From Chloroflexota bacterium (lineage in GTDB: Bacteria > Chloroflexota > Dehalococcoidia > Lucifugimonadales > Lucifugimonadaceae): a stretch of 34,978 nt of DNA. Of the stretch, positions 29,980 to 32,931 are shown piece after piece; position 1 is the stretch's first letter, and the number at the start of each line of letters is the position of its first letter. The notes beneath the pieces were generated by a model. The model saw only the letters and a list, made by a program, of their open reading frames with translations, was not told the DNA's origin and ran no database searches. The DNA lies in NCBI GenBank assembly GCA_002714425.1, contig PAXI01000012.1:1-34978 (forward strand). Direction: 5' to 3'. The position numbers and the translations under genes were made by a program.

Positions 29980-31206
29980 CTAACCATCACAGAAACCTCC
30001 TGAATCTAAATCAAAGCAACCTTCAAGATTAGTTGAAATGGTCGAAAACCACCTAAACTCATTATTGGTTTGTAGATAAATTCTTTCATCATGAAATATA
30101 GGACTTGAAACAACTGAGTCTTCAGTAATGAACATTCCAAGTTCCCTTCCATCTAATACAGAAATTATATAAACATTTTTCTCAGAAGAAGGAATAGCTA
30201 GAGATCGTTCTGTAATAGTTCCTCTGCTACGATTAAATAAAACAGGACTAGAAACTATTTGACCTTCTGGAATTTTCGTTTTCCAAATCGTTTCACCAGT
30301 ATCATCTTTGAGAGAATAAATTTCTCCAGCCAATGAAAATACGAATAAATTATCATCTTCAATGATTGCTGGAGTACCTATCCAAGAATCTAATTTTTTA
30401 CTCCATTCGCCTAATTTGGAATCTAATTGAGTAATATTATTTTTTTTATCACTAGAAATATTTATTTTGTAAAGTGTATTAGAGAAATCTCCAAAATATA
30501 TGAAATCGCCGTTTATGTAAAGAGAACTATAAATTGCGCCTTTTGATTGAAAAGTCCAAAGAATTCTATCACTAGGATTCATGTAATTTTCATCCGACGA
30601 CAAATCTATTGCGTACAACACTCCAGACATTGTTGGTACATATGCGATGGAATTATTTATGAGTACACCTCCCCAAGAGGCTCCAGATAAAGGTAATCTC
30701 CAAGATTCATATAAGTAATTATCATCTAAAATAAACTCAAAAAAATAGCCTGGATCAGAATTACTTGTATCAGATATTGATGAAGTAGAAACATATATCT
30801 TTTCATCAAGTTTAGCTATAGGACCAATTAATTTTGTCTTTAATTGATATCCATCTTCTCCCCATAATAATAGACCCGAATTTTTATTAATTTTATAAAT
30901 CTGGCCTTCACAATCATCACCTCTACATGAATATGCTGTTCCAATAAAGTCATTGCCAACAGATATCGGACTTGAATATGTAGAACCTACACTAACATTA
31001 TTTTTATAACCCCAGTTCCTATCAACCGTATTAGAGTTTAAATCGAACTGAACGAACTCACCTTTTTTCGTTGGGACAATAATTTTTTCATCATATATTA
31101 GAGGGTCCGCCCAGCCTCCTTGTGGAGAAAGATCATTCATACAGCCAGAGAAAAATATCGTAACTAGTATAAACAAAAAAATTGATAATTTACTTTTCTG
31201 AATCAC
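29980..31206 (-). CDS. PQQ-like beta-propeller lipoprotein
   Basis: 408 aa. The N-terminus MIQKSKLSIFLFILVTIFFSGC is a lipoprotein signal with the lipid-accepting Cys22. The rest is a series of beta-propeller blades with PQQ/BamB-like wording: SGVLYAIDLSS, NTLYKINISSD, GEIYSLKDDTGETIWKTKI, KNVYIISVLDGRE. The likely location is the outer face of the membrane. The start is GTG at 31206 with AGGAG ten bases before it; one base separates it from the yidD stop. No catalytic residue is recognisable, so a scaffold role is more likely than an enzyme. It sits between yidD and yidC, where no such gene normally is. BamB is the nearest analogue, but outer-membrane assembly is not expected in a monoderm. 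Confidence 0.85.
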   Translation of the reverse strand: MIQKSKLSIFLFILVTIFFSGCMNDLSPQGGWADPLIYDEKIIVPTKKGEFVQFDLNSNTVDRNWGYKNNVSVGSTYSSPISVGNDFIGTAYSCRGDDCEGQIYKINKNSGLLLWGEDGYQLKTKLIGPIAKLDEKIYVSTSSISDTSNSDPGYFFEFILDDNYLYESWRLPLSGASWGGVLINNSIAYVPTMSGVLYAIDLSSDENYMNPSDRILWTFQSKGAIYSSLYINGDFIYFGDFSNTLYKINISSDKKNNITQLDSKLGEWSKKLDSWIGTPAIIEDDNLFVFSLAGEIYSLKDDTGETIWKTKIPEGQIVSSPVLFNRSRGTITERSLAIPSSEKNVYIISVLDGRELGMFITEDSVVSSPIFHDERIYLQTNNEFRWFSTISTNLEGCFDLDSGGFCDG

Positions 31207-31207
31207 T

Positions 31208-31435
31208 TTAATTTTTCTCCTGAATCTTTACAGGATCATATATAACTTTATTTGATGGACGACATTTAAGGATTCTAACTAAACTCATATACATCCCCTT
31301 GATTATGCCAAATTCACAAAAGGCCTCGTATGAATATTCGGAGCAAGTAGGATAATACCTACATTGACTAGGTAAGTATGGAGAGATTGAAAGTTTATAA
31401 AACTTCCATACTAATTTTACTATTCTATTTTTCAT
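31208..31435 (-). CDS. yidD: Membrane protein insertion efficiency factor YidD
   Basis: 75 aa, peripheral membrane helper of YidC. The family core is clear: KFYKLSISPYLPSQCRYYPTCSEYSYEAF with its conserved cysteines, then RILKCRPSN. Start ATG 31435 overlaps the end of rnpA by 11 bases, as is usual in the rpmH-rnpA-yidD-yidC cluster. Confidence 0.95.
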   Translation of the reverse strand: MKNRIVKLVWKFYKLSISPYLPSQCRYYPTCSEYSYEAFCEFGIIKGMYMSLVRILKCRPSNKVIYDPVKIQEKN

Positions 31436-31799
31436 TTAAATTTTCGGAATTTGTAGTAGTTATTGGAATAACAGATAAGTATTGCAAAGAACTTATAAAA
31501 GTTTTTCTAAATAATTTAAAGTCTGTTTCTAGCGATTCTTTCTTTGGTATAACTACTATGTCCCAACCCTTTTGTATATTGTGTGTACTAATAAATAAAC
31601 TTCTTAATCTTCTCTTAATTAAATTTCTTTTGTGTGCACTGCCAACCGATTTAGAAACAGATAGTCCCAATCTAGTAATGCCTAATGTATTAGATTTAAC
31701 TGATACATCTATAAGTGGACTATTAAACCATTTTCCCAAATTATAAACTTCTGCAAATTCTTTAGTTTTAGTAATACGATATTTCCGAGAAAAGTCCAA
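31425..31799 (-). CDS. rnpA: Ribonuclease P protein component
   Basis: Protein subunit that helps RNase P RNA bind pre-tRNA. 124 aa. The RNR-type motif is present as KRNLIKRRLR (57-66), with RLGLSVSKSVGSAHKR before it and GWDIVVIPK after it. The N-terminus FSRKYRITKTKEFAEVY matches the family. The start is TTG at 31799, five bases after the rpmH stop with no ribosome binding site, so it is probably translated by coupling. Only the start codon is uncertain. Confidence 0.94.
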   Translation of the reverse strand: MDFSRKYRITKTKEFAEVYNLGKWFNSPLIDVSVKSNTLGITRLGLSVSKSVGSAHKRNLIKRRLRSLFISTHNIQKGWDIVVIPKKESLETDFKLFRKTFISSLQYLSVIPITTTNSENLNEK

Positions 31800-31804
31800 G
31801 TTAA

Positions 31805-31942
31805 CTATACTGTTAAGTGCAATCTGCCCTTGCTTCTACGTCTAGCCAATACGGAACGACCATTCTTGGAACTCATTCTTGAGCGAAATCCATGAACTCG
31901 CATTCTTCTTCTGTTTTTAGGCTGATAAGTACGTTTAGGCAT
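31805..31942 (-). CDS. rpmH: 50S ribosomal protein L34
   Basis: Found by reading the minus strand directly: ATG at 31942, 45 codons, stop TAG at 31805-31807. The protein [20 protein letters not shown], then [20 protein letters not shown] and LHLTV, is a standard L34 of normal length. First gene of the rpmH-rnpA-yidD-yidC-jag run. dnaA is not next to it. Confidence 0.97.
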
Positions 31943-32097: not shown

Positions 32098-32931
32098 ATG
32101 AGTGAAGAAATCACAAAAAACGGCGAATCTAAAGAAGAAATTTCAATAACTATCAATGATGCATTTCAAGAATATGTCCAGCAACTCCCCAAAAAAAATA
32201 AAAGAAACTCACAATCCGACGTTGCAAAATTTGTTAGATGGATTGGGGGAGAAAGATTCACATCTTCTATAGCACCATCAGAAATTGGTGAATATAATGA
32301 AAATTTTGGGCCAAAAAATACCTCTAGAGATCTTACCGATAGAATTACATCTACTAAAGAATTTTTGATCTTTATGAAAAAGAAAGAATATGTGAAGTTA
32401 AATCTAGCGACACACTTAAGGTTGCGCAAATCTAAAGTTTCTTCCAAAGGTAAATCTATGATTTCTAGTCCCACTATTAGACTAACGCAAAGTGGTTATA
32501 ATGAGATGACTAAGCAGCTTGCATCCCTTCAAAAAGAACGAATTAAATTGACTGCTGAAATACAAAGAGCTGCAGCAGATGGTGATGTTAGAGAGAATGC
32601 CCCGCTTGAAGCAGCAAGGGAAAGTCAAGGGATGACGCTAGGAAAGATTAGAGAAATTGAAGCTACACTAAAGGCAGCAGTAGTTATAGATGGCTCAAAG
32701 AGTAATTCTAAAATTGTTCAAATAGGCTCTAAACTTGAATTAACAGATAAAACCTCAAAAACTTCAGGGAAGTATCAACTAGTTGAGGCTAATGAAGCAA
32801 ATCCTTTAGATGGAAAAATCTCAACAGTTTCTCCACTTGGATCTGCAGTTCTTGGACAAAATGTTGGAGAAGAGGTAAATGTTAATACACCAAGAGGAAA
32901 TCAAGTATATATAATAAGTAAAATATTATAA
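32098..32931 (+). CDS. GreA-type transcript cleavage factor with N-terminal SAM-like domain
   Basis: 277 aa, against about 158 for normal GreA. Residues 125-277 are GreA-like: IRLTQSGYNEMTKQLASLQKE opens the coiled coil, the tip GDVREN keeps the two acidic residues Asp163 and Glu166 used for RNA cleavage by RNA polymerase, and the C-terminal domain has ISTVSPLGSAVLGQNVGEEV and TPRG. Residues 20-111 are extra and read like the core-binding (SAM-like) domain of XerC/XerD-type recombinases: a four-helix pattern ending KEFLIFMKKKEYVKLNLATHLRLRK. No recombinase catalytic domain is present. The usual AEYHAA after the tip is APLEAA. Function is probably RNA polymerase rescue plus an added DNA- or protein-binding module; whether another plain greA exists is unknown. 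Confidence 0.85.
   Translation: MSEEITKNGESKEEISITINDAFQEYVQQLPKKNKRNSQSDVAKFVRWIGGERFTSSIAPSEIGEYNENFGPKNTSRDLTDRITSTKEFLIFMKKKEYVKLNLATHLRLRKSKVSSKGKSMISSPTIRLTQSGYNEMTKQLASLQKERIKLTAEIQRAAADGDVRENAPLEAARESQGMTLGKIREIEATLKAAVVIDGSKSNSKIVQIGSKLELTDKTSKTSGKYQLVEANEANPLDGKISTVSPLGSAVLGQNVGEEVNVNTPRGNQVYIISKIL

Follow-up and report, generated by a model that had tools for sequence, protein, structure and literature searches.

A GreA-family protein carrying a tyrosine-recombinase core-binding domain is widespread in Dehalococcoidia

We found that one gene in the window, the 34,978-nucleotide stretch of DNA analysed here, encodes a complete GreA (residues 126–276) preceded by a tyrosine-recombinase core-binding (CB) domain, with a basic linker between the two, and we regard this architecture as close to certain. 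The open reading frame at 32098–32931 on the forward strand begins with ATG, has no internal stops and encodes 277 amino acids. Taken as a whole, the protein is probably best explained as a transcript-cleavage factor that has gained a nucleic-acid-gripping domain acting as a tether. The features of the gene are as follows, all on the forward strand.

32098–32931, forward strand: CB-GreA fusion gene, 277 aa, the sole GreA_GreB match of its genome
32098–32145, forward strand: residues 1–16, poorly conserved tail, predicted to be disordered (pLDDT below 50 at residues 1–13; dN/dS)
32146–32433, forward strand: residues 17–112, tyrosine-recombinase core-binding (CB, SAM-like) domain without a catalytic half (fold, profiles, alignment)
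32434–32472, forward strand: residues 113–125, basic flexible linker (pLDDT below 50 at 112–123)
32473–32694, forward strand: residues 126–199, Gre coiled coil (PF03449 at 128–196)
32584–32595, forward strand: acidic tip D163..E166, equivalent to E. coli D41/E44 (alignment)
32707–32925, forward strand: residues 204–276, Gre C-terminal FKBP-like domain (PF01272)
32458–32460, forward strand: internal ATG (M121), a possible second start that would give a 157-aa bare GreA; AAAGGT ends 6 bases upstream

The C-terminal half contains both Pfam Gre domains, GreA_GreB_N (PF03449; residues 128–196, 59.3 bits against a cut-off of 24.5) and GreA_GreB (PF01272; residues 204–276, 66.5 bits against a cut-off of 26.9). 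The GreA part of the full-length model superimposes on E. coli GreA (1grj) with a Z score of 17.2 and 1.7 Å over 147 residues. An earlier note on this DNA had read residues 125–277 as a GreA with an intact acidic tip, Asp163 and Glu166, and this reading holds: both residues are invariant in all 43 rows of the family alignment. The same D/E tip is present in 83 of 83 further fusions, bringing the count to 126 of 126 together with the family rows. The NCBIfam greA model TIGR01462 gives 127.6 bits, which is under its whole-protein cut-off of 139, a naming threshold; the protein is therefore filed as a Gre family member whose architecture is new, rather than as an equivalog of bare GreA. The earlier note had also proposed a check for a second, normal greA, and there is none, as the whole genome has a single PF01272 match and the fusion is its only Gre factor. 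The antipause activity of E. coli GreA depends on D41 and E44, and the overexpressed D41A E44Y variant is still toxic (PMC7527559). The intact D/E tip favours a cleavage factor over a Gfh1-like inhibitor, and we infer that the fusion is very likely a transcript-cleavage factor.

The N-terminal domain is confirmed as a tyrosine-recombinase core-binding domain by fold, profile–profile, own-genome and NCBIfam evidence, all of which agree. In the AlphaFold2 model of the full-length protein, built on the 43-row family alignment (A1; mean pLDDT 78.2, pTM 0.45), the N-terminal part forms helices at residues 19–29, 32–49, 60–69 and 77–95, and the GreA fold follows a linker whose residues 112–123 fall below pLDDT 50. 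Given the pTM of 0.45, the placing of the two halves relative to each other in this model is not to be trusted. Modelled alone, on an alignment of 46 of the 63 N-domain sequences from which near-duplicates had been dropped (A2), the CB domain reaches a mean pLDDT of 87.1 and a pTM of 0.80. In a Foldseek search with this domain model, rows 1–26 are tyrosine-recombinase CB domains, with a best E of 0.052 that is weak as E-values go. VIA-align with the domain only returned tyrosine recombinases or their derivative MrpR in rows 1–23 of 50; 2khv, among the top rows in both the search and the re-alignment, has no family name in its title. The superpositions include 3nrw (Z 12.5, 2.6 Å, 94 residues), lambda Int 1z19 (Z 11.3, 2.5 Å, 95 residues), XerD 1a0p (Z 9.7, 2.5 Å, 83 residues) and XerA 5hxy (Z 9.1, 2.7 Å, 81 residues), and the best unrelated chain among the 50 rows listed has a Z score of 5.5, a comparison that covers the families within those rows. 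Re-alignment of the full-length model gave the same tyrosine-recombinase picture for this domain.

Profile comparisons lead to the same assignment. The comparison set consisted of 30 recombinase N-halves from 21 genomes, picked solely by their PF00589 catalytic domain, and hhalign of the domain against all 30 gave a probability of 95.8% and a score of 50.1, whereas none of 50 column shuffles scored above 21.05 and the reversed profile scored 12.29. Comparing the domain again, with 18 of the 30 N-halves (alignment A3), gave 95.3%. The A2 profile matches three places in the window's own genome: besides the fusion gene, these are the N-halves, at E 5.1e-7 and 7.6e-4, of its only two PF00589 proteins. 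The NCBIfam XerC and XerD models match 15 and 10 of the 43 family members, respectively (best 1.8e-4 and 1.5e-4), with the window's own fusion protein unmatched by either, and Phage_int_SAM_4 and Phage_int_SAM_1 match two and one of the 43 weakly. The Pfam scan of the window's protein has no match before residue 126 and no integrase model over its cut-off, and a PDB sequence search with the domain profile gave 3nrw as its best match at a weak E of 0.21. PF00589 is absent from the fusion protein at E up to 10, and the protein ends with the Gre domain.

These results sustain what had been proposed from the sequence: that about 110 residues precede the GreA (we find 110–120, present in all 69 family genomes having the gene), that they resemble the SAM-like domain of XerC/XerD (supported by the fold, by hhalign, by the recombinases of the same genome and by NCBIfam XerC/XerD), and that the catalytic half is missing. 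The structure prediction and Xer comparison that had been suggested gave a CB fold for the N-terminal domain, neither an unrelated fold nor disorder.

Purifying selection acts on the CB half, where dN/dS is about 0.08. In Nei–Gojobori comparisons of the window gene with three members of its genus, dN/dS over residues 17–112 is 0.083, 0.089 and 0.076, and that of the Gre part is 0.032, 0.027 and 0.061; residues 1–16 give 0.40 and 0.51 in two pairs and 0.07 in the third. Basic residues are kept across the 46 rows of the domain alignment at R82 and K87 (46 each), R108 and K111 (45 each), K44 (42) and R47 (39), in window positions. The net charge of the domain is +7 here, with a median of +4 over 63 fusions and of +5 over the 30 recombinase N-halves. 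The recombinase-invariant T16, Y20 and R67 (numbered in alignment A3) are lost in the fusions, where they are commonly E/Q/A, A/S and E/K/D, respectively. This loss makes a recombinase-like reading of sites doubtful and a protein target possible. In every fusion that we read, the CB domain is joined to GreA as a conserved unit.

The fusion is widespread in the class, is old and reaches other classes, and is confirmed not to be a local oddity. It is present in 69 of the 76 genomes of the window's family and in all 26 of the good ones; the seven family genomes without a match are 58–85% complete, and in all 69 genomes having the gene the match starts at residue 18 or earlier. A local gene fusion or an assembly artefact is rejected on this recurrence of the same architecture, and an artefact is further countered by three more Dehalococcoidia/Chloroflexi MAG records and by single-contig genomes that carry the fusion. 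The named records with the fusion are Dehalococcoidia/Chloroflexi MAGs, with isolate names that look marine. Across the class, the full-length profile matches 281 of 294 genomes, a figure that counts matches and not fusions, and the N-domain profile alone matches 52 of the 54 class genomes of the phylum sample (best E 2.4e-9 or better; hand count). Beyond the class, 33 of 346 genomes have an N-domain match at E 1e-10 or better (hand count). Nineteen of these 33 were searched with the full profile and all 19 have the whole fusion; three more of the 33 were read as fusions (G523, G544 and G558). By profile searches, the fusion is absent from 12 genomes without a strong N-domain match and from 37 without any. 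The search for this layout across Chloroflexota, which had been suggested at the outset, thus revealed a clade-wide gene that reaches other classes, a spread missed when the window was first read.

One of the families of the class with the fusion, f23, has 19–38 reductive-dehalogenase matches in each of the six genomes tested, and we therefore call it Dehalococcoides-like. All 11 of its genomes have a single Gre match among the matches listed, and the seven that were read are fusions. A phage or plasmid origin of the gene was considered and rejected: a viral scan of 13 candidate stretches gave no confirmed relative, and of the 70 plasmid records that gave a match, none reaches 80% query coverage.

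A tree of 86 Gre domains (44 fusions and 42 free-standing copies), computed with the tip columns removed, places all 44 fusions on one side of a branch and the 42 free-standing copies on the other, with support of 94/74, which is not starred; without the long-branch fusion L235, the split is supported at 97/91 and is starred. A single early fusion is the simplest reading of this one-sided placing, and the fusion would thus have arisen once, early, in one part of Chloroflexota. The most divergent fusion is that of family f105 (L235 and L237), which lies on a long branch nearer to the free-standing copies and has the tip DGDLRENAAYD; a second, independent fusion event is possible for this family. 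In the out-of-class genome G558 there are two strong N-domain matches (C16:6466 and C31:307604; locus L109), with frames of 294 and 341 aa, which are possibly two fusion paralogues.

We examined the tips of the free-standing GreA proteins of these genomes and found that the fusion keeps its tip while the co-resident free-standing GreA of the class has nearly always lost D/E. Among 38 class genomes counted as fusion-bearing, a number that includes G155 (gene from model position 111) and G204 (a fragment with a stop) despite their partial or absent fusion, the free-standing copy has D/E in one and has lost it in 37. Both tip positions are acidic in five of these 38 copies (D/E in one, D/D in two and E/E in two), and at the position of D163 most copies have G, S, T, N or A. 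The free-standing class copies L199–L218 and L269–L288 have varied tips, for the most part without acids (G/S/T/N at D41 and N/D/T/A at E44), with the remaining Gre fold kept, and so can be read as a family of tip-defective secondary-channel proteins. In the fusion-bearing genomes beyond the class, the free-standing tip is D/E in one of 20 proteins, on a doubtful alignment, and D/D in 15 of 20. In out-of-class genomes without the fusion it is D/E in 7 of 11 and in 23 of 30, the latter being the genomes that returned a locus out of 37 searched, with one protein each, and both positions are acidic in 41 of 41. The odd tip alignments of G460 and G094 are counted as aligned. The sets of 38 and 20 leave aside, for example, the free-standing copies of G099, G200, G213 and G537, the second copies of G082 and the partial matches of G109 and G124, and G081, a class genome without the fusion that has three GreA proteins with tips D/D, D/D and G/E, is counted apart.

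The tip pattern suggests that the fusion, and not the bare copy, is the working cleavage factor. The pattern is tied to lineage: the association between tip and fusion comprises only three phylogenetically independent contrasts on supported branches, none of them contrary for E166, and these are too few for significance. The decay of the free-standing tips adds to the earlier note, which had missed the tip-defective copies. The fusion may have taken over the cleavage job as the tip of the free-standing GreA decayed; in the window's family and in the Dehalococcoides-like bacteria this free-standing copy would have gone altogether. The bare copy in fusion genomes may be inert, or may be an antagonist in the manner of Gfh1. 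A fuller division of labour can be imagined, in which the DNA-anchored, tip-competent CB-GreA rescues polymerase at DNA sites or structures that its recombinase-derived domain selects, the tip-dead free-standing GreA occupies and blocks the same channel, and lineages such as Dehalococcoides and the window's family, having lost this antagonist, depend on the anchored factor alone; we consider this elaborate version rather unlikely.

In known structures of Gre factors with RNA polymerase, the N-terminus of GreA lies outside the secondary channel. With a linker of about 12 residues, the CB domain would therefore be located near the channel mouth, within reach of downstream DNA, extruded RNA or the polymerase surface. 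We propose that the globular Gre domain binds at the entrance of the secondary channel and that the coiled coil brings D163 and E166 to the active site, where they would assist RNA polymerase in cutting the 3′ end of the backtracked RNA. The 96-residue N-terminal domain, presumably taken without its catalytic half from a Xer-like tyrosine recombinase, would remain outside the channel on the flexible basic linker. Most likely it tethers the factor to duplex DNA, or else to extruded RNA, in the vicinity of the polymerase, with contacts that may involve the conserved basic residues of helices 2 and 4 and the C-terminal tail. Such a tether could concentrate the factor around stalled complexes or steer it towards particular sites. 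The CB domains of XerH (PMC5241119) and of Tn1549 Int (PMC5871717) insert into the DNA major groove.

The chances that the CB domain is a nucleic-acid tether of this kind are, in our judgement, slightly better than even, and nucleic-acid binding without recombinase-type site reading appears to us more probable than a protein target. Under the latter alternative the CB domain no longer binds nucleic acid and serves as a protein-interaction module outside the channel, holding the factor on RNA polymerase or on a ribosome-coupling or repair partner. The three lost recombinase-invariant positions, one of which (R67 of A3) is mostly replaced by E/K/D, agree with such a role, as do the constant joining of the domain to GreA in the fusions read, expected of a fixed partner surface, and the CB–CB contacts predicted for Tn1549 Int (PMC5871717). 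However, a generic protein contact would require neither the basic positions of helices 2 and 4 and of the tail, which are among the most conserved, nor the positive net charge that the domain has in common with recombinase N-halves; we consider a protein module possible, at clearly lower probability than the tether. It could also be argued that the domain is a passenger, left over from an accidental gene fusion and tolerated for doing no harm to GreA, since elsewhere in the phylum Gre functions without any partner domain: the 41 free-standing out-of-class copies from genomes without the fusion all have acidic tips. This explanation is very improbable, as dN/dS over the domain stays at 0.076–0.089 in all three pairs and the domain is conserved over the class and beyond, with no copy of the gene lacking it among the 69 family genomes.

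The internal ATG at 32458 raises a different arrangement, with two products: the full fusion, which would be regulatory, and a bare GreA that does the cleavage. AAAGGT ends 6 bases before this in-frame ATG, which lies at the domain border, and both M121 and the AAGG-like stretch are kept in four of four genus members read. Furthermore, the GreA of D. mccartyi (cbdbA743) is acetylated at K17, more so in stationary phase (PMC7918482), and this numbering fits a count from the internal Met (M116 there), with K132 as the corresponding residue of the full frame. Against two products, other genera of the family have no Met at this place (for example L055 and L026), the Dehalococcoides-like ATG (M116) has no such upstream motif, and the K17 numbering possibly comes only from a shortened gene annotation. 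We consider the arrangement improbable. Acetyl-K17 as a site in the CB domain is rejected, as it fits the numbering from the internal Met instead; in the three genomes read, the full frame has N or S at position 17. The fit to a start at Met116 of the frame read in a related genome suggests that the CB domain is missing from the annotated D. mccartyi protein through truncation.

In the textbook picture, Gre factors are small, soluble, unattached proteins that reach stalled polymerases by diffusion. The fusion resembles E. coli GreA in having both Gre domains, the D/E tip and the fold, but differs from a bare GreA, which would start at about residue 126, in its extra 110–125 N-terminal residues with the CB domain and the basic linker. 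With XerC, XerD, XerA and XerH it shares the CB fold, and the profile similarity extends into the NPA..L..PK stretch that precedes the catalytic half; unlike these recombinases it has no PF00589 and has not kept the invariant T, Y and first R of their CB domain. MrpR (8a0a), the SPbeta prophage repressor, is likewise recombinase-derived with a role in transcription (PMC10516654), and its CB domain matches with a Z score of 6.8; however, MrpR retains an inactive catalytic domain and acts as a site-specific repressor, whereas the CB domain of the fusion sits on a polymerase factor. For the tip-defective GreAs, a model is provided by the Gre paralogues Gfh1 of Thermus and Rv3788 of M. tuberculosis, reported to inhibit via the secondary channel (PMC4598747), although these have tip acids and the free-standing copies of fusion-bearing class genomes mostly do not.

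Other Gre fusions also have the Gre part at the C-terminus, as in PRK06330 ('transcript cleavage factor/unknown domain fusion', 718 positions) and PRK14720 (GreA, 906 positions), but only that part matches (556–703 and 738–900, respectively) and their extensions are far longer. In predicted conflict proteins with TPR, GreA/B C-terminal and PIN domains, the GreA/B C-terminal domain is described as a polymerase hook (PMC8195603). Those proteins have a predicted defence role and variable N-terminal effectors (PMC8195603), whereas the fusion is a conserved gene with a whole Gre unit, and the Pfam scan found no TPR or PIN domain in it. Recombinase-derived transcription proteins and other Gre fusions, known or predicted, are thus already on record; our literature search found no description of a GreA with a recombinase domain and none on GreA in SAR202. 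A whole clade of poorly studied bacteria, among them Dehalococcoides-like organohalide respirers, seems to rely on a Gre factor with a domain of DNA-binding type, the conventional copy having either a decayed catalytic tip or disappeared. If the domain binds DNA, rescue of RNA polymerase would be targeted to places on the chromosome, and the recruitment of a cleavage factor becomes directly testable. Our results also suggest that a conserved second domain has gone unnoticed through annotation based solely on the Gre half.

A role named by its neighbours was rejected for the fusion, as ten neighbours scanned over seven loci show no conserved neighbourhood. The fusion is followed by a TerC gene both in the window and in a second family genome, M50 proteases adjoin it in two Dehalococcoides-like loci, and the remaining loci differ. 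In the window, the fusion diverges from two reverse-strand genes that we take from their sequences to be rpmH-like (31805–31942, 45 aa) and rnpA-like (31425–31799), the latter followed by what are presumably yidD-, yidC- and jag-like genes. The fusion occupies the place beside rpmH where dnaA often lies. Between the presumed yidD-like and yidC-like genes lies a reverse-strand gene (29980–31206) for a PQQ_2/BamB-like beta-propeller lipoprotein.
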